A stretch of 64,000 nt of DNA from Telopea speciosissima (Eukaryota; Streptophyta; Magnoliopsida; Proteales; Proteaceae). The position numbers were made by a program, and so were the translations under genes. The notes under the pieces are model-generated. The model saw only the letters and a list, made by a program, of their open reading frames with translations, made no database searches and was not told the origin of the DNA. Position 1 is the stretch's first letter, and each line of letters opens with the position of its first letter. Where the stretch lies: the NCBI RefSeq assembly GCF_018873765.1, contig NC_057916.1, forward strand, positions 27,193,501 to 27,257,500, given 5' to 3'. Of the stretch, positions 7,587-64,000 are shown one piece after another.

Positions 7587-8093
7587 TAGTGTCAATCAGT
7601 TCAGTTTTGGTTTGGTTTAAGATATAACATGTACAAAACAAAATTAAACTGAAATCGAATAATTTTCATAACCTCAAAACCAAACTAAATCAGTTCTGTT
7701 TATTTGGTTTGTACACGGGCTCAATCATTTGGTTCAAATTTGATTTAAGGGGATATAACCTATTGAAACAAATAAATTGGTAAAAAAAGTACATAATTCC
7801 CAAAAAAGAAAAAAAACTCATAATAGGTATTTCACACAACTCAACAGAGACACCTGATCGTAGGGTTTAATATGATATAAGTTAGGTTTGATTTGATTTA
7901 TATAGGTTACACTTTATTTGGTTCGATTTGATTCAAACATATGATTTTAAGTCTAAAACCAAAACCAACATGAACAAAATGAAATTTCACTTTTAAAAGT
8001 AAAAAAAACAAACTGAACTTTTTTAATTAAGTTCAATTCGATTTTTAACGATTGATTTCAATTTTTGATTCCAATTCTATATTGACAGCCTTA
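7587..8093. mobile_element. hAT-like non-autonomous element, AACCGAA/TTGGTTT-word family
   Basis: The ends are TAGTGTCAAT at 7587 and ATTGACAGCCTTA at 8093, imperfect inverted repeats of the TAGGGTGTCAAT type. Flanks are GCTTAAAG (7579-7586) and GCTTTAAG (8094-8101), an 8-bp duplication with one mismatch. The 507-bp interior is dominated by runs of GGTTTGGTTT, AACCAAA and AACTGAA in both orientations and has no coding capacity. It is consistent with a hAT MITE. Confidence 0.65.
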
Positions 8094-8101
8094 GCTTTAA
8101 G

Positions 8102-8587
8102 GCTTGGAGGGAAGGAGGGTGCTTCTACTCATTTAAGGTTTTGATAGGGTTATTGTTACTTAGCATTTGATTTAATGAATTTAATTTCATTTTGTTTTGG
8201 AAAAACAAAAAAAAAACTAGAAACAGAGGATCTGTATATTAATTAGTCATGACGAATTACACAAATTAATTCCTCGTAAGGCAAAAAAGATAATTTAACT
8301 TAATTAGCTCTTTAATCTGTGATAGTGATGGTAATAATGATAGTTGTTCTTGAAACTGAAGCAAAGAAGATTCACTGAAATGATACAACTCAGTTGTCTT
8401 GGGAGAGCACATTAGCACAAGGTACCAAAACAAGTACTAATGATGGTATTAGTACTTTAGAACTCCCTCTTAAAAGGAGCTTTGGGTATGTTTTATTTGG
8501 TAATCTATTATGATACATTATTGGTATCACGTTGATACTCCATATATAAGTATGTTATATGGTACTATATTAGTATTCCTTTGTTAT
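8102..8587. other. AT-rich intergenic sequence
   Basis: No gene, repeat end or conserved motif was recognised. TA-rich simple sequence leads into the target duplication of the next MULE. Confidence 0.4.
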
Positions 8588-8596
8588 ATAAATAAT

Positions 8597-9951
8597 GGGT
8601 TAAATACGCGTACCCCTTGTAATGCACCCAATATTCCTCGTACCCCCTAAGCTTTTGATAAGTCCACGTACCACCCCTGCTCTACCCCCCTAATGCCATT
8701 TAAGTCCACATCAGGTATTAAATGCTAAAAAATGACCAAACTACCCTTTCTTCTATCTTTTCAAAAATTTGAAAAGACCTAATTGCCCTGACCTATTTGC
8801 TAAAATTTGAAAAGACTAAAATGCCCTCATCTTCCCCAAATCATCATCTTTTTTTACATACCCAATACTACCACCACCACCGCCGCCGCCGCCACCCACC
8901 ATTAACACCATCACCATCGTGAAGCCCCACCTCTAGCACCACCTCCAACTCCTCCACCTTTATCGATTCCACCACCAAGTCCCCTTCCCTTGCCTATTCC
9001 TCCACCAACACCGCCGCCCTTACCAAAGCACCTCACCAATGCTTGAAATTGGTCTGACAAGAGAGACGAAAGATGCATAATAGATGGGATGATGGGATCG
9101 GTAATAGATGAGTTGAAGGAATTATGAATTATTGAAAGGTGCTCGAGATTGAAAATGGCATCCAATACTTCATCTGGAAAGGTCTGTGATCTTTCAGATT
9201 TTATTCTTATCTTTTCGGTCATGGATGATATATGTTAATCATTTTTTTTGTGATCTATAGATGCAATTCTCGAAGCTTATCTAGGGTTAAGATTATATAG
9301 TTTTGTGAACATTAGATGCAACAGTCGATTGAATGTGCAACTGATTTTGTTTAGGTTAGGGTTGTCTTACAGTTTGGCTGAATTTCTAGGGTTTCCGTTT
9401 ATTTTCAATTTCCCCCCCCTTTATAAAGCGTTTTATTTGGTGCTGCCAATCCTGATTCTGAAGTCTCCCATTAAGGTTTGTTATGGTGTCAACTTTGATC
9501 TTTGACATTTCAAGGTTGATGTAGAAGATAAAACAAAGGAAGTTGCAGTTTGACAGCATCTTTGGCTAATAAGTAGAAGATGAAGTAAGATGAATAATAG
9601 ATGGGATGATGGATCGGTTATGTTGTGATGGTGTTAATGGTGGGTGGCGGTGGTGGTGGTGGGTATGTAAAAGAAGATGATGATTTGGGGAAGATGAGGG
9701 CATTTTGGTCTTTTCAAAATTTAGCAAATAGGTCAGGGCAATTAGGTCTTTTCAAAATTTAGAAAAGTTCGAAGAAAGGATAGTTTGGTAATTTTTTAGC
9801 ATTTAATACCTGGTGTGGACTTAAATGGCATTAGGTGGGGTAAAGCAGGGGTGGTACATGGAAAATTGAGGGGTGGTACGTGGACTTATTAGAAGCTTAG
9901 GGGGGTACGAGGAATATTGGGTGCATTACAGGGGGTACGCGTATTTAACCC
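8597..9951. mobile_element. MULE with ~330-bp TIRs and perfect 9-bp TSD
   Basis: The element begins GGGTTAAATACGCGTACCCC at 8597 and ends with its complement at 9951. It is flanked by perfect ATAAATAAT at 8588-8596 and 9952-9960. The inverted repeats run about 325 bp (8597-8920 and 9628-9951), differing mainly by a ~22-bp segment present only in the right arm and by small indels. The inner TIR edge is a CCACCACC/GGTGGTGG tract. No transposase is present. A 104-codon minus-strand frame spans the internal region and the left TIR. Confidence 0.9.
8911..9222 (-). pseudogene. Open frame inside MULE, possibly a captured gene start
   Basis: This 103-residue minus-strand frame begins MTEKIRIKSE, then TFPDEVLDAIF, loosely reminiscent of the first helix of an F-box domain (FPDEVL). 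It then loses any such match and runs into a glycine-rich tail (GGGVGGG repeats) produced by the GGTGGT repeat of the TIR. It may be captured exon sequence fused to TIR, or chance. The F-box idea rests on six residues and is weak. Confidence 0.3.
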
Positions 9952-9960
9952 ATAAATAAT

Positions 9961-12048
9961 AGGGTACACCAAAAAAAAAGAATAACTAGAAAAATTAAAC
10001 TTTTAAAGGGAAAAAGATCTCCACTTGGTGGTGTTTCCTACGCCCTCTCACAAGGCACCGTGAGATGACACCTCTGCCCCCCTAGGTAGATACCTAGGCA
10101 TGCTCATCCATTGGTCCAAATGCTTGTGTAGAGACAATGCGACCAAGTAGAATTCTCTTGCCCACTTTGAAATTAATTAGGAATGTTATTAATGTTGTAA
10201 AGAGTTGCACTATACATTACAAGCAACCCACTCAAAGAGAAAAAGAACTACATGATATTGATTCGACCTAATTGTATAGAATTAAAACACTAAATCCCCC
10301 ATTATATGATTGTTGATTCAATCCTTAAGATACTTGCTTTAGGAAATTTTCGAAAGATTCCAAAATGGATTTAGAACAGAAAGATCGATAAGGATTTGGT
10401 TGGAACCGAAACAGCCAGGACCCATTTAAGATGCATATTACTTATTTAGGATTAGTTAATACTTAATAGTTATACCTTAGATATGATTACGTCGTAATTA
10501 CAAAGAAAAATTGAGGGTTATGTGTCAAAGAAACATTTATATTTGAGTGTGTGAGATTTTGAGGTCTAAAATCATTAGGGAATTGGAATCAGGTTATAAG
10601 ATTGACCCCCTTGGACCAGAACTAATAAGGAACCGTCCCGTTTTACACCCTTACAAGGAATGATACCTGTGCCTTCTATAAATACGATTGGTAGTGGTAA
10701 GATAGCTCAAAGAGGTATCAATATAAGTAATGGCAATAATATAATGTGGAACCTACTTGCTTGTGTTCATGTGTGCATGGCCACAGTTCACATTCATAAG
10801 GTTTGGGATACACTATTTGGTTTGTTTTACCTAGGTGTTTCATGGACAAAGTGATTGATACTTTGATTTAACCCAGGCTCAAAATAAAAAAAAAAAAAGC
10901 ATAAACCAGGAAAGCATTTCATCTAGCATCAACAATGCCTTTGAAGCAACATCTAAGCCTCGATAAACCCTACAGTTGTGGGCTTCAGAAAATATAGGGG
11001 CCAACCTGGCCCAACCAGAGTCCATTAGGGCCAGGCTGGGCTGAAACCAACAGGGTTGGACTTGGGCCAAGATGTCCCAGCTGTCTGATCGTGGGCTGGG
11101 CGGGGCTACACTTAAGTTAAGGGAACTAACCCGACCTTAGGGTTGGACTAGGTTTTGAAAAACCCGGCCCAGCCCAGCCTTGTTTCACCCGTCACCCCTA
11201 GAAGAGCCTATGAGATGGAAAGCATCAACTCTTCTTAGGCGTCTTACGGTTTTGCTTAGTGCTTGAGGAGCTTCTTCTTTGCCTCTTTGGGGTTATGAGT
11301 ATTCATGACATTAGAGCGAAAAAACCCTTATTTTAGGGCCCAGCCTACTCAGTTTCGGGATCCGGATCAGGATCAAGTTGATTTTAATTCAGTTGGAATT
11401 GGCTTGAACCCTAAAAACCCACTATAGATGGGTTGATTCGGATTGGTTGGAATCAGGATCTGACTTGCTGTTTCCAATCTGAACATGTCGATTTAATTAA
11501 TCCAACTCTAATTCTTAAAACCATGCCCCAATGGCCTCAGGCCTGACTAAGGGTGTCAATTTAGAATTGGAACCGAAATCGTAACCACCTATTTAGGATT
11601 GAACAAAGCTGAACAAAAAATTCAGTTCAATTTCATTCAGTTCAGTTTTGGTTTTAAACTAAAAACCATAGATTTTGAATTGTACTGAATACAGTGTAAC
11701 TTGTTATAAACCGAGCTGAATCAAACAGAATTGAAAAACTATTCGAATTGACATCCAATCCAATTCTCTTCAACCACCCATCCAACGAGAGAGAGAACAC
11801 ATATCCCAACACCTGGGGATGCTTGTCTAAGTCCTATTCACTATTGAATGGGTAGTTAGAGAGGGGTTGAACGCCAAGTTGGTGGAGACGATCTGGATAA
11901 TTTCCTCCCCGTTTTCATTTGTTTGAGAATGATGTGTCATCTTCTAGTTGTTCTTCTATACAAAGAATTTATTTTGGGGGAGAGAATGGATAAACAAAAA
12001 AGGTAAACCATAAAATATAATCCCGCTTACAAGAAGTAGCCCACTTTC
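9961..12048. other. Intergenic: clustered degenerate repeats
   Basis: No gene is recognised. About 10900-10995 is a relic related to 5680-5770. About 11000-11205 is packed with GGCCCAG/CTGGGCC words and ends CACCCCTAG. About 11340-11545 is rich in GGATCA/GATTC words and ends AAAACCATG. About 11555-11770 is an AACTGAA/TTCAGTT-rich element beginning AGGGTGTCAATT and ending AATTGACATCC. All resemble the short word-rich elements delimited elsewhere, but no target duplications could be confirmed. The 64-codon frame at 10660 has no protein-like features. Confidence 0.45.
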
Positions 12049-14140: not shown

Positions 14141-14371
14141 CATGGTTTGAGGTATCGGTATTGTATCGCCTGTATCAGGTGATACATAACAATTTTGCTA
14201 ATTGCCAATCTTATACTGTGTCAAACTGTCGATATCATATCGGTAATACATTACGGACAGAGGGTAAAAGAGTAAAAAATCGTGTTTTTAAAGGAAATCA
14301 TGAACAAATTTGTCTAATATCGATTTTATAGGTGGCCGATATCTGGTCCGATACCATGCACTAAAACCATG
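14141..14371. mobile_element. GATAC/GTATC-word hAT-like MITE, copy A
   Basis: A 231-bp element starts CATGGTTTGAGGTATCGG and ends GCACTAAAACCATG. It is flanked by AGTGTAAT (14133-14140) and AGTATAAT (14372-14379), 7/8 identical. The interior is rich in GATAC, GTATC and CGATAT in both orientations. It is the same family as 20814-21085, with long stretches alignable end to end. Confidence 0.8.
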
Positions 14372-14379: not shown

Positions 14380-15480
14380 GAATGATATTGACGTATAAAC
14401 GCCAATTCATGGCTTGCCTTGGTGGTTGTCAGGACTTAGGATAGTGATCCAGAGCATGATTATTAATCTTGAAAATCGGATCTGGATCGGTCTTGGCCTA
14501 CATCGATTCAGATAGTCTTGAATTAGTTTGGATGGATTTACCATTACTTTTTAATAAAAATCAATTTATATTAATTTTTACCCTTTGATTGCACTAATGG
14601 ATCGATATCGAACCAGTCAAGATTTGGGATCCATCTCAACCAATTCCAATCCGATCTAGCCGATATCGACCGATCTGATCCAAGATTATGAACTGCATGC
14701 TTGAGGGACAATACTTTCCAAGAAGATTGTGGCCCTCTTGGGAAAAAAATAAATGAACATATAAGATTAAACCAAAACTCATCTTTAACGTGGTCAAATA
14801 ATAAAATCCAATGCATTTATAGGAGACTCTTAACAACGAAATTGGCGGTGTTGCTAAAACTCTTTTTTCTTTGAGAGACACATTTTTTGATCCCTTTGGA
14901 CAGGTCACATGTGTTTCAAAGGGTTATCTCTTCCATAAATAGACGATGTTGGCCAAAACTAGTGAAGACCAATTCATATTTATCTCAGTTTCATCATATT
15001 GGTGCACGACAGAGGATTTTAATTCACTAGTAAATGTGTTTGTTAATGTTAGTCCTAAAAACCCATATATACACATCCCCAAAGATGAAACGAGATAAAT
15101 ATGAATTGCTCTTCACTAGTGGAAGATGCGACACCCAATGATACCAAACTTGAAAAAAAGAAAATATAAAAAAAACCAAGGTCATCACTATTGGCAAACA
15201 GAGTTAGGTGTAAATGTAAGTCCCCAGGAAGGTAGATGTAAATTTCCCTTTCATTTATGGTGTTAATATTTAAAAATAAAAATACATGGTTCGTTATGAC
15301 CAGGTTTGACTTGTTCGACCAGATTTTGAAGAAGACAACTCAAATCGAAAAACCTGGTTTTCCAAATTCATAAAATTCGAAATAAAAAACAAGAGGCAAG
15401 CAGCGTTCTGGGACTGGGACTATGTGAGGGCCTAGCCGATCTCTCTTTCAACCTCTCCCAACTCCAAATTCCTAGAGATC
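14380..15480. other. Intergenic upstream of the PPR gene
   Basis: About 14455-14700 is another word-rich stretch (GGATC, CGATATCG, GATTC), with TTAATCTTGAAAATC at its left and GATCCAAGATTATG at its right, probably a further MITE without confirmed TSD. About 14940-15120 has an imperfect inverted repeat around CTAGTGAAGA. No gene was found. The TATA element of the PPR gene could not be assigned. Confidence 0.4.
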
Positions 15481-20813: not shown

Positions 20814-21085
20814 CATGGTTTGAGGTATTGGTATCATATTGTGTGTATTGGGCGATACATAAAGGTTTTGCTAGTTGGCAATCTTGATACTGTGTTAATA
20901 CTGTATTGGTGACACGATATGGACAAAGGGTAAAATAGTAAAAAATTATGTCTTTTTTAAAAAAGAGAAATCAGGGGTAAATGTATCCGATACAACTGAT
21001 CCATACCGATACCATATCAATTTCGTATTGAGTTTTTGCAGGTGATCAATACCTAATCCAATACCATGCACTAGATAAAACCATG
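20814..21085. mobile_element. GATAC/GTATC-word hAT-like MITE, copy B
   Basis: A 272-bp element starts CATGGTTTGAGGTATTGG and ends GATAAAACCATG. Flanks are GATACCCC (20806-20813) and GATTCCCC (21086-21093), 7/8. It is the same family as 14141-14371; both contain GGGTAAAATAGTAAAAAAT-like internal sequence and CCATGCACTA before the right end. Confidence 0.82.
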
Positions 21086-22209: not shown

Positions 22210-25200
22210 ATGGCTGAGATGAAAATCGAGCAGTATTGTCTTGAGAACAAACAGTCTGCTGCTGCTTCCAGCTCATCTGTTTCCGATAGCAGTTATAGCA
22301 CTTTGAAGTCCCCAGGGATTTGCAGCCCTGATACAGCATCACCATCTCATCGGTACTTTTCTTTTTTCTGTTCATACTTCTCATCCTTCTACTGCACGAC
22401 AGGCAGATCAGTGTTGACTGTTTAATTACCTAGATTACTTTTAGTTTCTGAATTTGACTCTATCAGGGAATTGGATATGTTTGACTGCAATTGAACCATC
22501 CCAAAAATCGGTATCTAATCAGGAATTCAGACAAGCATAAGCTAAGTCTTACTTTTATTGGTTCAATCAAGCCTCTATTTCATGCTCAAATAAATATTTT
22601 TCCTGTCCGTTTATAAGAATCATTGGGCCGAGAATGATGATCCTTATAATTGGGTGATGAGTAGGAAAGAATACGTAAATCCATCTAAAGTGTATTGAAT
22701 TATTTTTGGCAGTTGTGATCATGAGTTTCTTCTGTTCTTAGCATTATGATAATGCCATTTTCACTGTTTAAAATTGCTCAAAGCTGTATACTGTGTGTTG
22801 CCCTTCATTGTGGTATTATTTTGTATACAGGAGGACTACTGGTCCCATAAGGAGAGCAAAAGGCGGTTGGACTCCACAGGAGGTGAGTAACTTTAATGAT
22901 AGCCTTTGTATATTGCCATTTGTATGTCACTGTCCAGCTAGACTGTTATGCAAGTATTGTTGCTACTCATCTGGCCTGTCAGATGTAACCATGGGTAGGG
23001 CAAGTCCAAATTGGTTGTTGACAGTTTGGATCAGGCAATATTTAAGAGGGATTCAGTAATAAAACCTTTTAGGTTTTCTAGTACCATATTGTTTTGGTTC
23101 ACACTAACTTTCTCCATATAGTCTTGCAAAACGTGCTTGTACTTGTCCATCTCTGTTTTTCTCATTAATTTCTTGGGTATCTAAAACACTTGGTTCGCTT
23201 ATCTTTGCAACTTGCTACAGGATGAAACATTGAGAAAGGCTGTTCAAGCGTTCAGGGGAAAGTGCTGGAAGAAAATAGGTTTTGCTCATTTTCTTCTTTA
23301 GTATTTCTGCTACCCATATGGTTGTTAATACTTTGAAGAGATAAGTTTCTTCCATAGTGGCCCTAGTTTTGTTTGACTTTGTTCTTCAGGTTTGGATTTG
23401 ATTAACTTGGCCTAGCATGATTCCACTATGTACGATGTGATGTTAGAGAGGCCATTATGGTTCTCCTCTGCTCAAAGTTTAGCTGTTTATATTAATCTTT
23501 CTGTTAAGCCATTTGAATTATTTTTCCCCCTAACAACTTCCATCTTTTAGTGGGATCAACCTATTACCTGTGATGAGTCTCAGAACCAATGAAGGATTTC
23601 ACAAGATAAAAAAAAATTCATTTTAGTAATGCTGAAATTTTCAATCAAAACGATAGACAACTCGCTATTTGCAAAGAATGCTGCTATTCTATTTCTATTG
23701 TGTAACTAGTTTAGAGTTTTTCTTAGTAATGGAACATCAATGGATTGACTCATCTCGGTCATACTACTACTACTGCAACTACTAATAATAATAATACTGT
23801 TGTTGTTGTCATTATTATTATTAGCGAAAAGAAGATTGTCAAAACACACATGATACTTTTTAATCAAACAGAGAGCTGACGATAAAAACTTGACAGATGA
23901 GTGACTGCAATATACAAGTTGTTATCGTCACTGCCAAGGTTCAAGATTTTGGTCTCGAATGGGGTTTTTCCTTGATCGAAACTGAATATACTACCGAAAT
24001 GGCACTAAAATATGGCATCAACATGGCCGAAATGACCAAAATGGCACCAAAATATGGCCCATTTCGGTGAAAAATTGAAACATTGAAGACCTCTCAATTT
24101 GCATGCCATTACGTTTCGACAAGTGTTGAAACCGAAATATTTCATCGAAATTTCGACCCATGCTCAGTGCACTGCCACACTTCTATGGTAATTGAGACCC
24201 CTTTTGTTCATTTGTCTGCGCTGAAACTACTAAACAAGAAATTTGGCCTCTCAAAGTGATGACAGCTTGATCATGAGTTATTAATGCCTCAAATCCCCAA
24301 TAAGCCTCCCAAACCAAAAATAAAAAGAAAAACTATAATGATGTAGATTATTAATAGAAACAGTTTAAGAACTGTAGAAAAAGTTGCACATATCTAGAGA
24401 AGCGAGCTCAAAATCTCATGTTCGGTGAGATTAAATTTATACACATTATTCATCCAAAAAAAAAAATTATACACCTTAACTTTTTTCATATATAGTCACA
24501 CTGGTAGATACTTTCTCTATGACAGCTGTCCAGGAAAATACCATTTTCCTTTGGCAAACTTGAAAATTTCATACGAATTGAAAAATATACTTTCTTAGCT
24601 TAATTTGCTCCAGCTATACAGCCTATACTTGCAAAACAGCCATAGTGTTGACTGGAAAAACATCTGTGGTTAATTAGTAACTAGTCTAAAACTATATTCT
24701 TTCTGTAAAGACAGTAAATAATTTTGTGCTGAAGTGAAACAGTATAGTGGTTTGTGGATGAATAGGCTCAGTTTTGGGATGCACAAATTATGTAAGGGAT
24801 TCCTCTAGTAGCTCATGTTTAACTTGGGCAAACTGCAAAGAGAAGAAATGAAAATGGACCTAGGAAATGTGAAAAGAAATCATAAAGAAGAAGAAAAAGC
24901 TCACTGATGTACAGTTTAAAACAAAGAGACACAAAATTAAAGACCAAGAAATGTTACACTAATCAATTTACTTTGTAGCCAAAGTATCTCTGGTAATAAC
25001 TATATCAACATACCAGCATAATCGAGGTAGTGGCATTTCAGCCTTGCGGCAAGTCATTGACTAGGTCATAAATAAGAATTTCTTAGGAAACCAAATTTCA
25101 CTATATTTATGTATTAAAAACTCAATATTTTACATGTAACATCCAGGGATTAAAATATAAAATAAACTAATAAAGCTTGCATTTTGAAAGATTGAAAAGT

Positions 25201-32322: not shown

Positions 32323-32508
32323 ACGGTATTAAGATTCGAGAATCAGATTGGTGAATCAACTGATTTGGATCAGAATCAGCCGTAACCGATCCAATCAATT
32401 CCCACTGATTCTACTTTGTTTCCGGCCTACTCCAGTCAATTCTGGCTGATTCGAATCCGAATCAACACTGACCAATTCGATTCCCATTGCCCTTTTTCTA
32501 AACCTTGA
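32323..32508. mobile_element. GATTC/GAATC-word element, perfect 8-bp TSD TTACAGCT
   Basis: A 186-bp element starts ACGGTATTAAGATTCG and ends TTCTAAACCTTGA. It is flanked by perfect TTACAGCT at 32315-32322 and 32509-32516. It is filled with GATTC, GAATC and CCGAT words. Related word-rich patches at 32165-32265, 33035-33235 and 36035-36200 lack confirmed duplications. Confidence 0.75.
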
Positions 32509-35052: not shown

Positions 35053-35067
35053 TCACTTTATCACATT

Positions 35068-35095: not shown

Positions 35096-35110
35096 TCACT
35101 TTATCACATT

Positions 35111-37010
35111 CATAAAAATAATGAATGGCCCAAAAAACATGAAGCAAACCATATGCAATTGAATGCAGCTCACAGAAGTGATATAGAAACCAAACTAGCC
35201 AAGTATTACGCTACTTGGCCAGATTCAAACTGAAGGGTGAAATCAAAACCTTAGTTTCTTCGGAGCAGAAGGATTATACTCAGATGAGTGGGAATAAGGC
35301 ATTAAAACAAGACACAGGTCCAAAAGGCAAGGAAAAAATTACTAGTGCCGATGTTTCTCCTGGCTCTGTAACCAGATTTGACAACAAATTCATCAATATC
35401 ATGGACCGAGTACTCATCAGAAATATAGCTTAACAAGGTCAAACATGTGAATTAAAACCAACCACCTGGAGCTGCTACCAGCTACAAGATAAGGTACATG
35501 AAACCAAGCAATTTTTGTTATGGATGTGGAATAGGGGTGTAAATCAACAGCTGTGATAATGGTAGCAACAAATAGGTTGGCGAAAAACTTGGCAACTGTT
35601 TCTTCATGGCTAGGAAGGGTTGGCAATTTCTGATTGGACTATCATTGTTGCTGGTTCAAAACCAGATAACGAGAGAAGGATGGATGTGTCATGTTGGTAG
35701 TTGGCATTTTGGAAACTTCAAGCCAGACCTTCAGTACAGATCCTGGATGCCCAAAAGAGATTCTTGTAACCAACCAAAACTAGTTGGGACAATACTTGTG
35801 ATGAGTCAAATTTCTGGCTGGGCTGAATATCATCCACAGTACAGGTAAGGCAAGAAACGTCTTTGGTTCTTTATGGGTGAGGAATGAGATAAGCTTGCAT
35901 TCAGGTTGTATGGACAAAGTTTTTCTTATCCAGCAGGTCCAAAGAGTTTCTTTATACTATCACAAATATTTACCACACAGCGGATTGGATAGAGATGAAA
36001 TTTTGTCGACAGTTGACATGTCATGGTCAGGGTTTGTAAACACAGAATAGGGATCAGAATCATTTCCAGCCGATTCCGAACCGGGGTGAATCGGTTGGCG
36101 GCCATAATCTGCCTTAACCCTAGAATTTGTATATGGATCCAGCCATTTTGAATCGGCCTTGGCCAATTCTGATCTGATTGTGATTTTTGAATCTCTGGTT
36201 AAGGTTTAACCAAACAGAATTGGCCAAGTGGCCAAATAAGGTTTTGAAAATCCAGTGAAAAATGAAACTTTCCTAAAAAGAAATGGATGGATGAATATCC
36301 GAAGGAATATGTCAATCCATGTGACAGTAAATATTTGAATTAAGTATGTGTGAAATTTGAAATGAAGCTAATCTAGACCATTTTCTACCTATCCCTAAAC
36401 TAAGATCGTCATATCACCTTTCCACATAGCAAAACATGGTGTCAATCTAGAGATACACTCTACTCTTTCCGGACTAGAAAAACTTTTACCTTTATTTATT
36501 TATGGGGGAGGGTTTCCCATGCTGCCAGTATAGGACGAATCTCCCATGCCACATCAGTGGTAGTGAGCAGGATAATATCTTCAGTAGGGGGCTCACAATG
36601 GTAAGAGGAGAAAATGAGTTAAAAAATCCAAGTGAGAGGGTCGTACCTTAAGTGAACAACATGGAGATCTTTTTCCATATATAATTTACTTACTAAAGCA
36701 ATTTTGTTGGATGGCAACCCACGAGAAAAAACAGCTGGGGACACTTAGATATGCCACATGGCAAATTAGGTGGAGTTGAAATTTTATGGACAAGTAGACA
36801 CCAAGGCTCCTTGCTCATACAAAAAGTCTCAGCTCAATCGGAGTAGGCCACTCAACAGAAAAAAAAAATGGAAAAAATTCAGGACTACCAAGAGGTGCAC
36901 GGGAGTACAAGGGAGTGCATGAACATACACAGGAGGATTGACCATTAGATGGAGGGACGAGGCTGAAATTCGACAAATGGCCAATTTAGACCTTATATTA
37001 TAAATGTTAT
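35111..37010. other. Intergenic
   Basis: There is a GATTC/AATCGG word-rich patch at 36035-36200 and a dispersed repeat at 36745-36985 (relative of 2753-2990). No gene was recognised in the frames at 35215, 35606 or 35960. Confidence 0.4.
36745..36985 (+). repeat. Dispersed repeat, copy 2
   Basis: This shares CACATGGCAA, AATTTTATGGACA, GGACTACCA and following phrases with 2753-2990 in the same order. Non-coding; class unknown. Confidence 0.5.
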
Positions 37011-37014
37011 GCTA

Positions 37015-45264: not shown

Positions 45265-47960
45265 CCCTCAAGTTGGAGCAAATATGTCAATCATGCCCAA
45301 CTTGACTAAATTCGGATGAAATAGCTTTCTAGATAATCCCTTGGTGAAAATATTACCAAGCTGATCAGCAAACTTCACAAAGGGAACACAAATCAGCCCT
45401 TCTTCCAATTTCTCCTTGATGAAATGCATATCCACTTCAACATGCTTTGTGAGATCATGCTGTACCCAGTTATGTGCAATGCTGATTGCAGCCTTGTTAT
45501 CATAGTACATCATAGGAAGACGAATAGGGACACCAAGATCTTGTAGCAAGCCTTTGAGCCAGAGTAACTCACAAATGCCTTGTGCCATAGTACGAAATTC
45601 TGCTTCGGCACTAGAACGATCAACCATATTCTGCTTCTTGCTACGCCAAGTGACAAGATTGCCACCTTCAAAAGAGCAATACCCAGAGATAGACTTGCGA
45701 TCTGTAGAACCAACCCAATCAGCAGCCATGTATGCTTCTATCCGTAGCTGACCATGAGGAGGCAGGAGAATTCCTTTTCCAGGAGCTGACTTCAGGTAGT
45801 GAAGGATGCGAAGAACAACCTCTCTATGAGAAGAGTAGGGATCATGTATAAACTGACTCACAGTACTCACAACAACAGCAATATCAGGACGTGTGTGTGA
45901 GAGATAAATCAAATTCCCTATTAGTCTTTGGTACCGGCCTTTATCAACAGGTTCACCCTCTTTTTCCTTGAGACAAATAGTAGCATCCATTGGAGTATCT
46001 GAAGGGTGACATCCTAATAAACCAGTTTCAGCCAATAATCTAGGAAATACTTCCTTTGGGAGAGAAAGATGCCTTTAGAAGATCTGGCAACCTCAACCCC
46101 AAGAAAGTACCGTAGCTTTCCTAGATCTTTAATCTCAAACTCCTGCCCAAGAAAGGTCTTCAACCGGCTGATTTGATCACCATCATTGCCAATACCTACT
46201 ATGTTATCAATGTAGACTATAAGAACAGTGAGTTTTTCACCAACCCTCTTTATAAAGAGAGTGTGATCAGCATTACTCTGCTTATAGCCCACAGAAATCA
46301 TGGCCTTGTGAAACCAGCCAAACCATGCTCGAGCTGACTGCTTCAGCCCATAAAGTGCACGCTTCAATTTATACACCTTACCTTGGTTTTTGTCACAAGA
46401 GAACATGGTGGAATGTCCATGTACACCTCCTCATCCAGTTCTCCATTTAGGAAAGCATTCTTCACATCCAACTATTGCAATTTCCACCCAAGATTGACTG
46501 CATAGGATAGCAAAACTCAAACAGTATTCAGCTTTGCAATAGGGGCAAAGGTCTCCTGGTAATCAATGTCGTATGTCTGGGTGAACCCCTTTGCCACGAG
46601 TCGTGCCTAATACCTATCCACGGTGCCATCCACCTTCTGTTTCACTACAAACACCCACTTGCATCCAACAGTTCTCTTCCCAGGTGGAAGAACCACAAGC
46701 TCCCATGTGTTATTTTTTTTTAGGGCTTCCATTTCTTCCATCATTGTTGCCTTCCCCTTTCCATCTGATAGAGCTTCCTGCCAATTGTTAGGAATACGAA
46801 CAGAAGAAAGAGAAGAAACAAAAGCACGAAAAGATGGAGAAAGGGAGTTGTAAGAAACAACATGGGATATAGGATGCTTAGTGCAAGCCCTGACACCTTT
46901 GTGAACAGCAATAGGTAAATCAGGAGAAGAAGTATTACCAGGTGGAGGGACAGCTTCTGGAACCAAGTTCGGCAATTGGATGGGTACTGGTGCTATGGTT
47001 GGTTGAAGCTGCTTATGTTTCCTTGTATAAGTCTGCACATTAGATTCTTTAATCTCCCTCTGAACTTCACTAATGGTTTTCTGGACTGGAGTTTGCTCCC
47101 CTTGAATAGGAACGTCGACAACATCAACTGAGATGGTTTCCTCCTGTATAGGAACCTCTCCCCCTGAGGTAGAGGGAGGACTACGAGTAGAAGGAACAGG
47201 AACAAACTCATTGTAAACAGACTGTAGGAAAAGTTCTATGGTCAGCACATCTTCACTAACACTCTCCCCCTGAAGAGATGGGGACAAATAATAAGAAACA
47301 ATCTCATGAAAAACAACATGCATACTAACCAATGTATGTCTGGCAGGAGGATAATAGCACTTGTATCCCTTCTGGGTGGCAGAGTACCCTAAGAAAATGC
47401 TGCTGAGACTACGGGGTTCAAGTTTACCAGAGGAGCTAGTGTCCCTGGCATAACAAACGTAGCCAAACACCCTAGGGGGAACAATAAAAGAAGAAGAGCC
47501 AAGTAATAGCTCGACAGGGGACTTGGAGTCAAGAACCCGGCTGGGCAGCCTATTAATCAAATAGGCTGCAGTGAGGACAGCATCTCCCCAATGAAAAGAA
47601 GGAACATGTCAAGCAAACATAAGTGCTCTAGCCACCTCCAAGAAATGGCAGTTTTTCCTCTCAGCCAGACCATTCTGGGCTAGAGTACCATCAGCTATTT
47701 TAACTTTATCCTTGCCAGCAGTAGGGGAATAGGTATGAAAGAGGCTAGAAGAACCTGTCATGTGATCAGTGGCACCGGAGTCTATGATCTATGGAGTGGA
47801 GACAACCGATGCACAATGACCAACAAAGGAAATACCTGAACGGGCAAAATGAGAACCTGATGGTGTGGAATAACTGGCAGTAGATGTAGTAGAGGCAGTG
47901 GAAGACTGTAACATATGCCTGAGAGCCTGAAATTCTTCTTGGGAGAAAACTTGTTCAGTG
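45265..47960 (-). pseudogene. copia pol (broken; integrase core missing, catalytic residues lost)
   Basis: Protease DSGATDHM is preceded by an in-frame stop at 47789-47791 where family members usually carry Trp. The reading then jumps from KVKIADGT directly to QNGLAERKN, so the pre-integrase zinc motif and the first two catalytic acidic residues of the integrase are deleted (roughly 1 kb by family expectation). RT is readable as WELVVLPPGKRTVGCKWVF, then GLKQSARAWF. The active-site box is YIDN instead of YVDD or YIDD (Asn codon at 46205-46207). RNase H has YMAADW where YTDADW is usual, losing an active-site Asp. The last frame ends just before the polypurine tract. Confidence 0.92.
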
Positions 47961-48880
47961 GTGGGGGTTGTAGTTACACTTTCAGTGTGATTAGCCTTGC
48001 TTTTAGGTTTACCATGACCTCGTTTGGCCTCAAAATTAGAGGGCTTCCCATGTAATTTCCAGCATTGAGCCTTAGTGTGATAGGGTTTGTTGCAATGTTC
48101 ACACTTTATAGGCTCCTTTGCGTAGCAATAGCAGCAGAAGCACTACTTTCAAAATTAGTAGAAGATTTGGAACCAGCAGCTTGTAGGGCTGATCTCTCAA
48201 CTGTAGGAGTCAACATCACAACAGCCCGACGTGTCTCTTCAATAAGAACATAAGAAAAGGCCTGCTCCAATGTTGGAAAAGGGACCCTACCAAGAACTTG
48301 CACTCGAATTGGATCATATTCAGCATTAAGACTAGCCAAAAATCATAAACTCGAAACTGATCCACATACTTGGAATAGGCAATAATGTCGGCAGTTGTAG
48401 AGGGCTGAAATCGAGCATAGTGATCCAATTGTTGCCATAAGCTCTTGAGGACAACATAGTATTTGGTAACTGACAACTCCTTCTGAGTAATGGTATGGAG
48501 TGTCTTCCGGATGTCATAAACTTGTGCATCATTCCCCAATTGTCCATAAGCTTCCTTGGCAGCAGCCCATATCTGTGCGGCTGTTTCAAGGAGAAGGTAC
48601 TGACTTGAGAGTTCTTGTGGCATGGAGTTCAGAACAAAGGACATAACTATAGCATCATTAGCATTCCATCGAGCTTGAGAGGGGTCCTCTTCAGTAGGCT
48701 GTTTAGAGGTACCATTAAGATGGCCACTGAGTCCTCTTCCAGCTACAGTCAAAGAGAGAGATGGCCCACATTAGATAATTGGTGCCATCAAGTTTAATGG
48801 CAGCAGTATAAGGGAGGAATTCAGTCTTGGACTGACCATCTCCTCCAGAAGTAGCCGTTGTAACATTAGAGTCTGGCATG
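47960..48880 (-). pseudogene. copia gag (broken)
   Basis: The start codon lies at 48878-48880. The reading KLDGTNYLMW near the start is the usual copia gag opening. A frameshift near 48740 moves the frame. The reading then continues through the capsid-like region (NSMPQELSSQYLLLETAAQ, IRKTLHTITQ, LWQQLDHYARF) and after another shift reaches a zinc knuckle CEHCNKPYHTKAQC (CX2CX4HX4C) at about 48060-48105. Gag packages element RNA; here it could not be made intact. Confidence 0.9.
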
Positions 48881-50155: not shown

Positions 50156-50229
50156 CATAGTTGTCAAGGCGTTGCCTTGCGTCCAGGCCCCCTCAAATGC
50201 CTTGGGTCGCCTAGACACTAAAAACTATG
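50156..50229. mobile_element. 74-bp AAGGCG/CGCC-word mini-element
   Basis: It starts CATAGTTGTCAAGGCG and ends CTAAAAACTATG. Flanks are GGTGGGAC (50148-50155) and AGTGGGAC (50230-50237), 7/8. It shares its left end with the elements at 62678 and 63502. One of the shortest elements in the window. Confidence 0.75.
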
Positions 50230-50583: not shown

Positions 50584-53366
50584 CTAAATCAGGAAGGAGT
50601 CGATAGTTGTTTGACGAAGAACTTCAGAACTTCGATCAAGGCCATGAGATGCCACCTGTCATATAAGTTAAAAGATCATGGATATATAATTGAAGAAAAT
50701 CGATCAATAGAAACTATATAAGCAAAAGAGATTTCTAGTAAGCCAAGATTAAATGATGTTCTCAACTTGCACTCATTAAATTAAACACACAAATGTATAA
50801 GGTGAAAGGGCCAATTACTCACCATATGAGTAAGAGCAGCATAGCGTTCCTCATTCAAATACAACGGCTTCCCTCTTTGCATTTCAGTATCCTGTAATTT
50901 TAGAATTTAAAACATGTTACAGCCAAGAAGTCAGGAAACGGAGCTAACAAAACAACTCATATTTTGGTACATTTTTAAGTAGGAAAAAGCTTTTGACTGC
51001 AAACATGTGACAGAACATATTGATATCAATACTATGTCTGGAGGTGTCATTTTGTCATGAATTTTTTATGCGGAATCCGGGCCAAAAACCCTATTGGGTT
51101 TGCTATGGGCCCACCGGATATTAAACAACTCAATTAACAACGTGTATGGCAATTTCGTAATTTAATGCAACTAAAATTAACAAGAGAAAAGGAACCATAT
51201 GGGGGTGGAGGGGACTTGCATGAGGATGGATGATTCTGGAATTAAGACAGATAGATTAAAATAGAAGGAAACTTAAAAGGCAAGGGTTTTATTGTAATTT
51301 GTAAGACCATCCGCAAAAGCAAATTAGAAGACTTGATGTCTTCTTCAATCTCACGATTCCAAAAAGGGAATAAAGCCAGCAGTAGAACCAGAAATACAAT
51401 ACCCAATCGGACTCTCTCTTGAGTCCAAATCCCATGAAACTGTAGGGTATGATTCGCAATCTCCTGCCCTATTGAACCCAACTAACGGTCACTCGAAATA
51501 ACAAGAGATAAAATACCACTAAAGGACTGAAACTGCGTCTGGCTGAAAACATCACAGGAATCAAGAGAGCTTGATTCTACCATTTTGATAATAGCTGAAT
51601 ACGATTGGTAGCGAGCATTTCTACCATTTTGATAATAGGAGATAATACTAAACTAATGTTTGAGCAATGCCAAAAAAATAAATATCTATATATACCTCTT
51701 CACCGAAGGCATCCAAGTAGGGAGAAGGCCAAGGTGACTGACGCGCTGATCTTTGTAACAAGATTGTGATTCTCTGTCACAATGAGAAAATCATCATTTT
51801 TCAAGGCAAGGGGGAGGGAGAAAGAAAGAGACTTTCAGGGCAGTTCAAAATTTTGACTAGTGGGTAGTAAAAACTTCCAGACTCCAGAACGGCCCCCTTC
51901 AAGGGAAAAAGAAATGAAGAAACGGAAAAAAAAAATTGTGCCAAAAAACCAAAATAATATTGAGGAGCATCAACCATACCCTGATCAATAGGAACACTCC
52001 AATACCAGCACCACAGGCCATTGCATGAGTTTGGCAGCTGCCTGCCCTTTAAAAGTGTTAGTAAAAAACATGTTAGCAACAAATGTCAAAGCTGCATGTT
52101 TGGCTCAAGAGTGGCAAACATAAACCAGCCATAGAAAACCAACAACTAAAATACAGCATTGGGAAATAGAAAAGGAATAGTCAACAAGAACAATGAGGTG
52201 TATGTGGAACCTGCAGCATGATTTCCAAGTTGGAGAGCATAATCTACCACAAAGCAAGCATAACGCTGGCACATCCTGAACAGCTTTGCAGTCAGGGCAC
52301 TGCTGTTTTATATACCTGATGAAGCAAATAATTTATTGGAAGACTTTAAACTTCAAAGAAAACAGTGGAGAGGGTTTCTATGCTCATTCCCCCAACCCAA
52401 AAATAAATGGAGAAGGGAGTCCTCCAAAATCCAAATTTGTGGAGGGAAAGTAGAAAACATACCTCTGCAAAAGATCCTGGTAAAGATGGGGCAGACGCAT
52501 CAATTTGAATGGAACTGCAGGAGTGGAGTGCAAAGCACGTCCATAACTCCGAACCTCAAACACCTTGAAGAAATGATTGAACCATCTTAATACTAAAGTA
52601 TGCAACAACCCATCCTTGAGAACAACATCCAGAGAGGGGATCTTGAACATGTTCTCTAGTTGTTCAATTTCTATAAGCTCTATTGATAAATCACAGGTGT
52701 TTTCCCATATATCATTTTCTGTATGAGGAGATGATCTATCCCAAACACGAGATTTACCAAATGGCGTTGACATTGAAGAACTCAGCAATTTCCACAATAA
52801 CGCACACCTTCGTAAATAAGGAAAAGTAAATCTACGAATCATATCTTTTGGATGGCATGAAGAATCAACATAGTTGGTAACAAAATACTCCTGAGTAACT
52901 ACAGATTCTCCAATAATCTTGCATATGTCAATAATTGGGCAGTCACCAAACTGTAATTTGGTGAGATCCAGTTCATGTCTCCCACAGGATGTAATTACTG
53001 CCTGCAATGCGATCCACCAATAGAAGGAGAATCGGGCAAGAGAAGAAAATTTAAGCAAAACTCGATTTTTTTTCCCCAATAAATTCCTTCAAAGAATGAA
53101 TTCTGAATTCTAGTAAGTACCTGAATGACACACACGCTATAGAAGAGCTGCACAAGAGGTAAAAAAGACTCCACGGATGATAGAAATGGACGTGGAAGAC
53201 AAAACAGCACCCACATCAATGAAGAAAAAGGATCATGAGCAATGATTGGATCAGCAGCTCGTTTCCAGAACTGGATGTCAGGATATACTACTCTCTTTTC
53301 AACATGTTTCAGGATAGAAAACATGTCACCTGTCAAGCATGGCACCAATGAGATGTAAATAAGGTG
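50584..53366 (-). CDS. PRT6: E3 ubiquitin ligase PRT6, C-terminal exons only
   Basis: Minus-strand exons 53121-53366, 52463-53001, 52211-52315, 51980-52046, 51696-51773, 50823-50891 and 50584-50655 (stop 50584-50586) join in frame to 391 residues, with GT/AG at the internal junctions. Readable landmarks match the C-terminus of plant PRT6: FTFPYLRRCALLWKLL, PAVPFKLMRLPHLYQDLLQR, then a Cys-rich segment (CPDCKAV, CLLCGRLC, CQTHAMACGAGIGVFLLIR), SARQSPWPSPYLDAFGEE, RGKPLYLNEERYAALTHM and a conserved tail ASHGLDRSS, LRQTTIDSF. PRT6 is a UBR1-type N-recognin that ubiquitinates proteins with basic N-termini, such as group VII ERFs in oxygen sensing. The UBR box and RING, near the N-terminus and middle of a ~2000-residue protein, are absent. 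No upstream exon is found through 64000, so this is either an immense intron or a truncated copy. The first exon's acceptor is poor. Confidence 0.88.
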
Positions 53367-53399
53367 CTTTTTTTGGTGGAGGGGGCGCAGTGGGGGTTA

Positions 53400-56155: not shown

Positions 56156-56530
56156 TTTGCCACTTCTTTCTTCTTTCTTCTTCTCTCTTCTTCTTCTTCC
56201 TCCTCCTACAACCCCTTTCCTGCAACTCCACCCCCCTAACCCTGCTGCGGCTCCCACCTCCCATCCCTGCCCCCACCTCCTGTTGCTGGTTCCACCATTA
56301 TTAAACTCCCAACTGCAACCCTTTCTTCTTCTTCCTCCTCCTGCTAGGTTTGCCACTTCTTTCTTCTTCTTCTTCCTCCTCCTACAACCCCTTTCCTGCA
56401 ACTCCACCCCCCCAACCCCTGCTGCGGCGCCCACCTCCCATCCCTGCCCCCACCTCCTGTTGCTGGTTCCACCATTATTAAACTCCAACTGAAACCCCTT
56501 TCTTCTTCTTCCTCCTCCTGCTAGGCTGCA
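56156..56530 (+). repeat. Two tandem ~190-bp CT-rich units
   Basis: Two same-orientation copies share TTTGCCACTTCTTTCTTCTT, CCTACAACCCCTTTCCTGCA, CCATCCCTGCCCCCACCTCC and GGTTCCACCATTATTAAACT. The strongly biased composition yields long spurious open frames on both strands. Confidence 0.85.
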
Positions 56531-57371: not shown

Positions 57372-57641
57372 TAGGAATGTAAACGGATCAGATTCGGCTC
57401 GGATAGTGCTATATCCACATCCGCATCCGATTAGCTTTCGGACGGATTCAGATAGTGCTAAACGGATACGGACACGGATACGGATCTGATATTTTATCTG
57501 TTTACATGTAAATATAACTTTTCGGATAGCTATAGCCTATCCGTATCCGCATCCGTTTAGCTATCGGACGGAACCGGATAGTGCTAAACGGATACGGACA
57601 TGGATACGAAAACGGATTTCGACTATTCATTTACATCCCTA
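57372..57641. mobile_element. CGGATAC/GTATCCG-word hAT-like MITE, perfect TSD GGTTTGGG
   Basis: A 270-bp element begins TAGGAATGTAAACGGAT and ends ATTTACATCCCTA. Flanks are perfect GGTTTGGG at 57364-57371 and 57642-57649. The interior is a dense array of CGGATAC, GTATCCG and CATCCG in both orientations. It is nested in the MULE-like element 56021-57807. Confidence 0.88.
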
Positions 57642-58002: not shown

Positions 58003-58683
58003 CATAATACTAAAACTCGGGTCTCAGTACCAACTCGGCCCTTGGAAAAACCGAGTCGAGTCGAGTCGAGATGTTGCCGAGTTGGTGCATTTTTTTTTCG
58101 ATTCGAAGCCTTAACTCGGTGGGTTTTAGACCTAGTTTGGGTCTGAAACTTGGTATTCAGCCTATTTTAGGCTATTTAAACACAATGACACTATCAGATT
58201 TTGCAAAAACAAAGTTCAAATATGAGTTTCAATTCGGACCATAGATTGGTAGGCGATGACGTAATAAAATACCCTACTCCACACATAATTTAGTAATAGA
58301 AAGCAAGCAAAACATTCTATTAATAGCTAAACAACTTAAATAAGAATTAGAAATGTTAAAGTGATACATCAAACTGTTTAACAGTGTTACAACTATCATC
58401 ACATAAAATGACTTTGAATCAAGTATTCAGTCCCCGCTAGTGTCACATAGTCTTCCCATGACATAGTGTTGCTGTAATGTTGCATATAGTGCTCCACATC
58501 AAGCATATAAGAGTTCTGTCGAGTTAGGTAAGTAAATACATAGTAGATGGGTCATTTCCATGGGTCAACCCGAGATCCGAGATCTCGGCGAGATATTGCA
58601 CTTTTAGGTACCGTATGCCATTTCGTCTTGGTTTCTCAGAAAACTGAGAAACTTGCCGAGATCTCGCGAGTTCTTGAACTATG
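58003..58683. mobile_element. CGAGATCTCG/CTCGG-word element, perfect TSD GGAGTAGG
   Basis: A 681-bp element starts CATAATACTAAAACTCGG and ends CGAGTTCTTGAACTATG. Flanks are perfect GGAGTAGG at 57995-58002 and 58684-58691. Word arrays (CGAGTCGAG, CCGAGTT, GAGATCTCG) sit only near the two ends. The ~400-bp middle is ordinary AT-rich sequence without coding. Confidence 0.88.
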
Positions 58684-58691
58684 GGAGTAGG

Positions 58692-60590: not shown

Positions 60591-60604
60591 GCAGCTATAT
60601 AATT

Positions 60605-62614
60605 TTTTTTGGGTGAATAAAAAATTCATTACCAAAGAGAAAGAGAAATACAGCAGCCCTCAAATTAGGAGGGAGGGGAGAAGAAAAAGAGGAAAATACA
60701 AAAAGGCAAAGACTCAGAGAGAGGAGTCAGAAACCCGACGAGAGATAGAGGTAAGCCCATGGTACAAAATTCCGCGATATATCGCCAATATAGCGTGAAA
60801 TTTCGGTAATTTCGGTAGGGCCGAGACGAGATGTGAAGGCGAAACCAAAAAAGACAAAATTTCGACGATATTTCGTAACATTTCGACGATATACCGAAAT
60901 ATCGCCGAAATGTTACAAAAGACCTCACGTGACTCATTAAACCATGGTTATAAATACCATATTTCGCCAGCTAACAGTCGAAATATCGACCGAGAGCTGG
61001 GCAGAAGCTATTTTTGGCCAGCTACACTCGTTTCTTCTTTGAAACTATACCGTGGTCCACATATGTCCTTCAAACAGAGAGCAATGGACGTCGACTCCAG
61101 CGGGCCATGAGTGGGGTTGAGCCAGGAAGGCACAACAACTATTATTAGCACTTGTGAGTTGTGACTTGTGAGTCTTGTGAGTCTTGTCTCTTGTAAGTTG
61201 TAAGTTGTGATTTCACCGATTTGTGAAATTGTGAGTTGTGACTTTGTGTATTGCCTATTAAAGTATTGCCTATTGACCATTAAGTCATTGACTATTATGG
61301 AGATTATGAGAATATGATTTATGAATTATGTCTTATGAGTTTTAATTACTTTGTTTAATTTTCTTTTATGTCTTTAACTGCCTAATCAATGTGTATTTAA
61401 CTATTTATATACATTAAGGTCGGTAACCGTATACTATCAATCAAGGGTGAAAGCCCAAAACACCACTTTGAGTTCATTTTTTTGCAATATGAAGGTTTAA
61501 ATGTGTTTATTTAGCTTAAATAAGGGTGTCCATGAAGTATCACGCCTAGATATGGCCAAAAACCCACCGAGATGGACTCCCAAAATATTACAGAAAAAAA
61601 TGCAATATTTCGGCGAAATTTCGCCATATTTCGGATATCTCGGTAGGCCCGAGATACCGATATATCGCGAAATTTAATACCTTGGGTAAGCCCCCAGAAT
61701 ACAACAATGAGTCTGTTCCTTGGGGTATCAATACAAGTGGAGGGGGACGAGCTAAGTTTAGTTTTAATCTCAAAGAAAATGGAATCCCAAATCTGCTAAA
61801 GTGAGCGGGATTTGGTCGTCCATTTCCTGAGGTTGCATTCCATCCAAATATGATTGATGACAACACAAAAAGCCAGCTTTCCGACCATGTCACAAAGGGA
61901 GTGGCCACCATAAGTCATATCAGCCCAAACCCATTCTCTGTCAAAAAGAAGAATCCTACGGTTTCTTGGCCAGCATTTAGCGAGGATGCTTTTCCATATA
62001 GAGGAAGAGAAAGGACAAGCAAAGAAGAGATGATTTGAGTCCTCGACCGCATTCCAACAAAGATCACAGCTTGGGGAGACCGCAATATGCCGGTGCCGAA
62101 GAAAGGCCTGCGTTGGAAGACAATCTGAAAAAACTCTCCATGTTGTAAAGCAATGGCGGGGGATGTGGTACTTGAACCAGACCAGATTCCTCCAAGGGGC
62201 AGAGGGTTGCGAGAGCGGATATGATCCCAAGCGGCTTTGGAACTGAAGGAGCCCGAAGAGTTCGGCGGCCAAGTAACACAATCACCTCTATTATGGGGTC
62301 TCCTAGAGATAGGAGGCAATATATTCCAAATGTTATTGAGCGCAGGGCTGGAGGAGGACGGGGGAGACCAGCCACTCGGATCAAGAATATCAGCCACCAA
62401 AGATGTACGAGAGAGACCAGAGCCATAGATAATTCTAAAGCTGACTTGATGAAGAAGAATTCCCAAAGGGTGCCAGTGATCAAGCCAAAGCAAGGTGGGT
62501 GCTCCATCGCCAATGCAAGATTGGATAGCTCCTTGAACAGAAGAGCGATTAGATAGGATCTTGCGCCAAACCCAAGAAGCATCTGAAGAGGCTGAGACTG
62601 TCCAAACCCAAGAA
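60605..62614 (-). mobile_element. 5'-truncated L1 LINE, 14-bp TSD, with nested element
   Basis: It lies on the minus strand with 3' poly(A), seen as T8 at 60603-60610. Perfect GCAGCTATATAATT occurs at 60591-60604 and 62615-62628. Coding remnants over 61690-62600 show a zf-RVT domain: HIPRHCFTTWRVFSDCLPTQ, CDLCWNAVEDSNHLFFACPF and SSSIWKSIL. Frame is broken by indels across three frames. An independent 927-bp element interrupts it at 60758-61684. It is related to the LINE at 40473-41389. Confidence 0.93.
60758..61684. mobile_element. CGAAATTTCG-word element nested in LINE, TSD GGTAAGCC
   Basis: The left end is CATGGTACAAAATTCCGCG and the right end CGCGAAATTTAATACCTTG, with inverted ends of about 25 bp continuing into CGATATATCG. 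Flanks are perfect GGTAAGCC at 60750-60757 and 61685-61692. Word arrays (CGAAATATCG, ATTTCGACG) occupy about 200 bp at the left and 80 bp at the right. The middle holds a GTGAGTTGTGACTTG-type imperfect repeat (about 61150-61260) and AT-rich sequence. Confidence 0.9.
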
Positions 62615-62677
62615 GCAGCTATATAATTGCTTCTATTTATAATAGAATATAAACAAAACGCCTACTTCTAATTTCAC

Positions 62678-64000
62678 CATAGTTATCAAGGTGGCAAGGC
62701 GACCACGGCGTTTGAGGGCCTTTCTAAGCGCCTTGGCGATAGGGCCGCCACAAGGCGTCGCCTTGGCGAACAAGGCGTTCTAGTATTCTTTTTCTTATAT
62801 AACCATTTTATTTGGTACAAATAGCATATTAAAACAATAGGACAATGGGACATGGAGGGAGATTCTAGAGTCCTCGACTAAGGAATCGCCGATGGGGGTG
62901 GAGGCTGGAGGAGCAGCAGCAGCAGCATAAGAAAAAAAAAACGAAAAATCAAGGGGACAATGGGACATGGAGGCGCAGCAGAAGAATAAGAAAAGTAGAA
63001 GAGAAGAATAAGAAGAGTAGAAGGTTACTTACCTTGCTGGAAATGTGGTAGTCGGAGGAAGCTCCGTCGGAATCAAAGCAGCTGGCAAGAGAAGACCAAT
63101 ACCGGAATTGATGGAGACTTGGAGTTGTTCCTTCACCGCAGGTTTTTTCTCCCAAACCCAAATAACGAAGATGAAAAGTCGAGGGTTTCAGTTTTGGACT
63201 TTAGTTGAAAAAGAAGAAGAAAAAATCTTTTATACCCTTGATAACATGTATCTCAGTTTAGATAATACATACACCAGGCAATGAAAAGTTAGTAAATAGA
63301 ATAAAACAATAAAAATAAATAAATGGGGTTTTTATAGTATTGATCCAATGTATCTCAGTGTAGATACTCCATATACACTTTCAAATAATAAGTTAGGAAA
63401 TAGAATAAAAAAGTAAATACATAAAATAAATTTAACAACAAAAAGCGACCGCCTTGGTCACAAGGCGTCCTAAGACCAAGGCGGTCGCCTTTCTTACATA
63501 CCATAGTTGTCACGGCGTCACGGCGATCCAAGTCGGTGGAGGGGTGTCACGTCGATATATCGACATGTCGCCCACCATGGCGTTGCCATGGCGAGCATAT
63601 CGACCATGTTTTATTTTTTATTTTCTCTATTTTTAATGTTTTAATAGATGTATACTCGAGCCATGTTTTATTTTTTCTCTATTGTTTCTCAAGTTTTAAG
63701 AAGAAAATTCAGAAATCGAAGAAGAAATCGAAGAGGGAAAGAAGAAATCGAAAGAAATCGAAGAGGGAAAGAAGACAGGAAGAAGAAATCGAAGAAGAAA
63801 TCGAAGAGGGAAAGAAGAAATCGAAAGAAATCAAAGAGGAAAAGAAGAAATCGAAGAGGGAAGAAGAAATCGAAGAGGGAAAAAGAGACAGGAAAAAGAA
63901 ATCAAAGAGGGACGCCATGGCGTAGGTCGCCATGCAACCTTCTCCAGCGCCAGGACGCCATGGCGACGCCATGACAACTATGTTACATATCATAAGGCGC
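62678..64000. mobile_element. AAGGCG/CGCCTT-word element, right end outside the window
   Basis: It begins CATAGTTATCAAGG at 62678 and is rich in AAGGCG, CGCCTTGG and GGCGACC to about 62785. The same words recur at 63445-63490 and again after the nested insertion (ATAAGGCGC at the window end). The middle holds ordinary sequence. Because the window ends at 64000, its right terminus and TSD cannot be seen. Confidence 0.7.
63502..63982. mobile_element. GGCG/CGCC-word element nested in the previous one, TSD TTACATAY
   Basis: A 481-bp element starts CATAGTTGTCACGGCG and ends CGCCATGACAACTATG. Flanks are TTACATAC (63494-63501) and TTACATAT (63983-63990), 7/8. The interior has a GAAGAAATCGAAGAGGGAAA minisatellite (about 63715-63910). 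Its conceptual translation, a Lys/Arg/Glu-rich frame, is a by-product of that repeat. Confidence 0.88.

Follow-up and report, generated by a model that had tools for sequence, protein, structure and literature searches.

The 64-kb window analysed here (64,000 nucleotides of Telopea speciosissima, contig NC_057916.1, positions 27,193,501 to 27,257,500), to which all statistics below refer, holds a group of short insertions that belong to a known kind: they are non-autonomous hAT-like elements. The ten closed ones measure 74-927 bp, short as for miniature inverted-repeat transposable elements (MITEs), and another runs past the window edge. Our analysis makes it probable that these roughly eleven elements are hAT-like MITEs, that they mostly carry the same tips but different inner words, and that the words would be sites for the transposase. 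They had been delimited in a sequence-only reading, which proposed an 8-bp target-site duplication (TSD) at ten of them, CA(T/A)(A/G)GTT-like starts and a two-way repeated word for each family. There are two end types, not one: a CA group with tips CAWRGTW, and a TAG..TGT group, called TAG group below. The elements are given here by coordinates, strand not being applicable in any row, and are referred to by their first position.

7587..8093: hAT-like, TAG group, 507 bp; TSD GCTTAAAG/GCTTTAAG, 7/8; no significant word
11548..11767: probable decayed relative of 7587; right border set by eye
14141..14371: CA group; word CGATA(C)/(G)TATCG; TSD 7/8; homologous to 20814
20814..21085: CA group, 14141 family; words largely CpG-decayed to CAATAC; TSD 7/8
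23937..24169: word CGAAAT/ATTTCG; TSD CACTGCCA, 8/8; alternative ends 23935-24162
32323..32508: CA-group-like; word GATTC/GAATC (CGAATC); TSD TTACAGCT, 8/8
50156..50229: CA group, 74 bp; CAAGGC/GCCTTG palindrome adjoining the tip; TSD 7/8
57372..57641: TAG group; word CGGAT(A); TSD GGTTTGGG, 8/8
58003..58683: CA group; word CGAGAT/CGAGT; TSD GGAGTAGG, 8/8
60758..61684: CA group; words CGAAAT and CGATAT, plus four CGAGAT; TSD GGTAAGCC, 8/8
62678..64000: CA group; word AAGGCG; runs past the window edge; hosts 63502
63502..63982: CA group, inside 62678; word CATGGCG; inner tandem array; TSD TTACATAC/TTACATAT, 7/8

When the ends are read together with their flanks, the 8-bp duplication is present at all ten delimited elements, as proposed, with 8/8 matches at five (23937, 32323, 57372, 58003 and 60758) and 7/8 at the other five (7587, 14141, 20814, 50156 and 63502). 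Duplication plus terminal repeat alone proves nothing, since a blind scan for pairs with a duplication of at least 7/8 and a terminal repeat returned 107 pairs, against 118, 95, 83, 109, 91 and 91 in six shuffles, which is chance level. Under end rules that were formulated only after the elements had been inspected, CA[AT][AG]GT together with the duplication left 6 pairs, whereas 20 shuffles averaged 0.20 and never exceeded 1; the figures were 11 pairs for a looser CA rule (mean 4.70, maximum 8), 1 for a TAG..TGT rule (mean 0.05, maximum 1) and 12 for a TA[GA]G rule, with no excess over the mean of 13.6. Five of the six pairs that pass the first rule are 14141, 20814, 50156, 60758 and 63502, all delimited beforehand, and the sixth, 34360-37752, is taken for chance.

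As a rule, the terminal inverted repeats (TIRs) of hAT elements begin with YA. Nine elements in the window have the common tips CAWRGTW: among 17 ends, position 1 is C in 16 and T in the other, position 2 is A in all 17, and positions 5 and 6 are G and T in 16 each, a count that uses shifted ends for 23937 and 32323, excludes the four ends of 7587 and 57372, and includes both ends of an element and several elements of one family, which are not independent. The other two, 7587 and 57372, start with TA, carry GTCAA or GTAAA and form the TAG group. The YA rule fails for 23937 and 32323 if the ends of the sequence-only reading are kept. The delimitation of 32323 is apparently about 1 base off, and the ends of 23937 are ambiguous, since by eye they can be set in two ways: as delimited, with an 8/8 duplication but poor terminal repeats, or at 23935-24162, where the ends are hAT-like and the duplication is 6/8. 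The stretch at 11548 gives blastn matches of 31, 91 and 22 bp to 7587, and no TSD of at least 7/8 was found for it in a search within 4 kb.

Behind these tips, words are enriched in 10 of 11 elements, in that no more than 5 of 300 shuffles equal the top 5- or 6-mer at one or the other length. The 23937 element has six copies of CGAAAT/ATTTCG and 32323 nine of GATTC/GAATC (0/300 shuffles for each), while CGGAT occurs 15 times in 57372 (0/300 shuffles and 0/300 background windows). Weaker values were obtained for the 6-mer of 14141 (17/300 shuffles, 40/300 background windows) and, against background windows, for 58003 (5-mer 68/300, 6-mer 9/300) and 50156 (5-mer 57/300, 6-mer 12/300), in which the palindrome next to the tip has an arm of 6 and starts at bp 10. 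The top word of 63502 is an internal tandem array, CATGGCG being its subterminal word. The top words of 7587 are not significant (17/300 and 45/300 shuffles); with that exception, subterminal repeats in both orientations are present as in the hAT superfamily, and single arms carry words in both orientations. The word-by-element table is nearly diagonal, and the idea that each family has its own two-way word holds for the most part. However, CGATAT is common to 14141 (4 copies), 60758 (8) and 63502 (3), CGAAAT to 23937 (6) and 60758 (14), and 60758 mixes three words, which is at odds with lineages strictly exclusive by word.

Word position was tested in six elements, and in four of them the words lie at the ends (binomial P 0.0015 to 5e-6, with words picked by the analyst and overlapping matches counted). 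Within 200 bp of the ends are found 16/16 CGAG words of 58003, 19/22 CGAAAT/CGATAT words of 60758 and 9/9 AAGGCG words of the stretch 62678-63501, and 21/22 word matches of 63502 fall within 120 bp. At 18 of 21 ends, 8-25 bp separate the tip from the start of the first word. The suggested regular helical spacing was not borne out, as a 10.5-bp period is reached by 73 of 1000 jitters. For periods of 11, 12 and 13, the jitters that did as well numbered 1, 0 and 0 out of 300, but no period is claimed, because seven were tried and many adjacent distances of 5-8 bp come from overlapping pairs.

A change of word on homologous sequence is seen between two arms:

58003..58217, plus strand: left arm of 58003, homologous to the right arm of 60758
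61470..61684, minus strand: right arm of 60758, homologous to the left arm of 58003

Aligned from the tip, these arms are homologous over about 215 bp, with 138 of 201 ungapped columns identical. In blastn, 58003 matches 60758 over 95 bp at 69% identity (E 7e-5; tip distances 113-207 and 114-206), and the distal part, 101-215, which is poor in words, has a score of 47, whereas none of 2000 shuffles exceeds 28. When all arm pairs were compared without their first 14 bp, this pair reached z 13.9 and no other pair with different words exceeded z 5; the remaining pairs listed above z 5 lie within one family, word type or element. The two arms share seven CpGs (of 10 and 11), three of which read CGAG (or CTCG) in both, whereas four read CGAG in 58003 and CGAA in 60758, with both strands counted. 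Thus, the word appears to have changed on one backbone, a single instance seen once. Since the CpG itself is kept, decay is a poor explanation of the CGAG/CGAA change, although decay in non-CpG contexts could have helped it. Conservation in the arm pair is 14/21 for CpG, 12/17 for CA, 10/15 for CC and 176/384 for all dinucleotides; being no higher for CpG than for CA or CC, it does not amount to evidence that CpG is protected.

CpG is usually the fastest dinucleotide to decay. Its observed/expected ratio is 0.46 in the whole window, compared with 1.48 and 1.38 in the first and last 120 bp of 58003 (0.40 in the middle) and 2.45 and 2.10 in the end 120 bp of 60758 (0.81 in the middle); 63502 has 1.50 and 0.98 at its ends but 1.84 in the middle, and 7587 has 0.47 and 1.50 at its ends and 0.54 in the middle. 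CG is part of the top 6-mer in 6 of 11 elements, compared with 1.4-5.6% of background windows. No background window out of 1000 attains the CpG enrichment of 57372, 60758 or 63502; 14-34 windows do so for 14141, 23937, 58003 and 62678, while the number is 58-294 for 32323, 7587, 20814 and 50156. Between 14141 and 20814 there are 33 transitions and 7 transversions, and at ten sites a CpG in one element corresponds to TG, CA or TA in its partner (lost 8:2, none shared). The lack of a shared CpG and the excess of transitions indicate that CAATAC is decayed CGATAC, and 20814 consequently no longer counts as a family with a separate word.

Further clusters of CGATA, GATCGG and GATTC words, found partly by eye and without a clean duplication, lie at 1690-1880, 14450-14690 and 33010-33250, and are perhaps older relatives. 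A different 1.36-kb element occupies 8597-9951 (borders by eye), with arms of about 370 bp that are 80% identical; its inverted repeat extends outward to GGGTTAAATACGCGTA, and ATAAATAAT at both flanks forms a 9-bp duplication, which suggests that the element is Mutator-like. The neighbouring coding content was surveyed with a Pfam scan of 40 of the 174 open frames of at least 70 residues (E-value limits 0.1, 0.001, 0.01 and 0.01), and reads as that of plant DNA: it comprises a GH17 glucanase and, close to it, an X8 domain, together with a PPR protein, the C-terminal part of PRT6, and pieces of copia and long interspersed nuclear element (LINE) retrotransposons. The PRT6 C-terminal domain is in three pieces on the minus strand at 52108-53396, the third just below the cut-off, which are probably exons of one gene. 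The copia retrotransposon lies in broken pieces (RVT_2, SH3-like and gag) on the minus strand at 45271-48770, and a LINE-type zf-RVT piece at 61799-62281 is situated between elements 60758 and 62678. In addition, 19465-19767 matches bacterial small-subunit ribosomal RNA and is probably an organelle-derived insertion, and 56180-56525 consists of a 177-bp unit in two tandem copies, 95% alike. Among the elements, the scan covered only those frames that overlap 57372, 60758 or 63502, and these yielded no Pfam family at its cut-off.

From their likeness to other hAT elements, the words are most likely transposase sites. In such a mechanism, hAT transposases supplied from elsewhere would cut the element at its tip, and their zinc-finger BED domains would recognise it by binding its word array. 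The words of most families centre on a CpG (CGAAAT, CGATAC, CGAGAT, CGAATC, CGGATA, AAGGCG and CATGGCG), around which they would have drifted between lineages, with one case on a homologous arm (CGAG versus CGAA). We conjecture that the CpGs may turn the words into methylation sensors; at Ac sites, according to the accessible parts of PMC3878927 and PMC5371812, binding is inhibited by methylation, and it is hemimethylated sites that are selected once replication has passed.

Several points weigh against this interpretation. No hAT transposase domain, whether BED finger, RNase H-like core or dimerisation domain, was detected in the 40 of 174 window frames scanned with Pfam, and a hAT signature pattern had no match across the six frames of the window. 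The words are concentrated at the ends of 58003, 60758, 62678 and 63502, but 57372, which is too short, gives P 0.17, and 7587 has only 2 of 5 words at its ends (P 0.78). Of the 21 ends, 7 carry a short palindrome in bp 7-30, compared with 160 of 3000 background 24-mers, but palindromes are also frequent within the elements (376 of 3000 positions). The CGAG/CGAA change concerns one arm pair and is a transition, for which decay outside CpG is possible. In the available text of PMC3260210, Ac transposase binds AAACGG repeats, of which three copies are required; some maize Ds1 elements without AAACGG still move, however, and seven tested Ds-l elements did not move though their class has AAACGG. 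Likewise, in the accessible portion of PMC10368747, no BED domain binds the right end of Hermes. These cases imply that words are neither always needed nor sufficient.

One may argue that the differences between families mostly represent methylated-cytosine decay from one or two ancestral words rather than functional diversification, an alternative that we consider somewhat unlikely. The 14141/20814 comparison, with its excess of transitions and no shared CpG, is in its favour, but 58003 and 60758 keep seven shared CpGs with the fourth base changed at four, and CGGAT and AAGGCG are not derivable from CGATAC by decay; this objection is itself weakened in that CpG is conserved no better than CA and CC. 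Of the proposed diversification of the binding word, one word change on a homologous arm stands, whereas at least one difference is decay and some words are shared.

It is also conceivable, but very unlikely, that foldback or tandem growth gave rise to the words as a side effect, that they were retained since such elements amplify, and that they are not binding sites. Within each of 57372, 60758 and 32323, one arm does resemble the other when inverted (z 15.4, 6.3 and 4.8, respectively), and the top word of 63502 is a tandem array. Nevertheless, a simple hairpin does not explain words that occur in both orientations within single arms, for which reason a simple foldback origin was rejected; nor does growth of this kind sit well with words that avoid the middle of four elements and begin so close to the tip at most ends. 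The idea that some elements are chance delimitations, or members of a superfamily other than hAT whose duplications measure 8-9 bp, for instance Mutator, is highly improbable: the blind scan at chance level and the poor terminal repeats of 7587 and 23937 as delimited speak for it, whereas the common CAWRGTW tips and the 6 pairs against 0.20 speak against it. Overall, the observation of word-bearing elements was partly confirmed, and its interpretation as arrays of transposase sites is partly supported.

If the words are transposase sites, hAT lineages here might diversify their recognition by changing bases around a fixed CpG, which would be kept for replication-coupled methylation control as reported for Ac, with the flanking bases serving as a lineage key and the array changing in concert, giving partly orthogonal transposase-element sets with common tips. 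We regard this extension as unlikely, its probability being lowered by the finding that CpG is conserved no better than CA or CC between 58003 and 60758. In the literature compared here, as far as its accessible text goes, subterminal words have so far been described per single hAT element. In this one 64-kb stretch, several word types stand behind tips of the same kind, and one pair of homologous arms differs in its words. Such a stretch is natural material for studying how specificity shifts jointly in a transposase and its array, and whether all lineages are held under methylation control by a CpG that they have in common.

Among known systems, maize Ac/Ds has a target duplication of 8 bp. 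The elements described here share with it this length, short terminal repeats and many short words near the ends (AAACGG in Ac/Ds), which in Ac are bound by the transposase according to the text available; they differ in having another word and other tips, and in that several words coexist in the window. In the accessible part of PMC3260210, Ds1 has only the tips and a few words in common with Ac. In Brassica nigra, the hAT MITEs BniHAT-1 and BniHAT-2 resemble the present elements in size (673 and 666 bp), 8-bp TSD and TIRs (25 and 12 bp), but the term "subterminal" is absent from the main text of PMC7385995, which offers no word array to compare; it is absent too from the available text of a 207-genome MITE survey (PMC12550479) and a plant MITE review (PMC12595863). 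No survey of word diversity in plant hAT MITEs was among the matches listed, which covered titles and abstract starts, with subscription papers mostly outside and Repbase and P-MITE outside. Six sequence strings, taken from the window or known beforehand, gave one unrelated match in papers, patterns had no match in three scans of IMG/VR, and one query of plasmid records had none. Herves and Hermes are unlike the present elements in being animal elements with other words and, for Hermes, in a right end without BED binding, but both offer parallels. In the accessible text of PMC3143072, Herves transposase binds CGATTCAT, and AAACCC and TGACCC are the words of Tag1; CGATTCAT contains GATTC, as does the word of 32323, which may be a coincidence. 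For Hermes, the available part of PMC10368747 describes BED domains that bind a quasi-palindromic site pair at bp 11-27 of the left end (LE11-27), and the end palindromes in this window resemble that pair.

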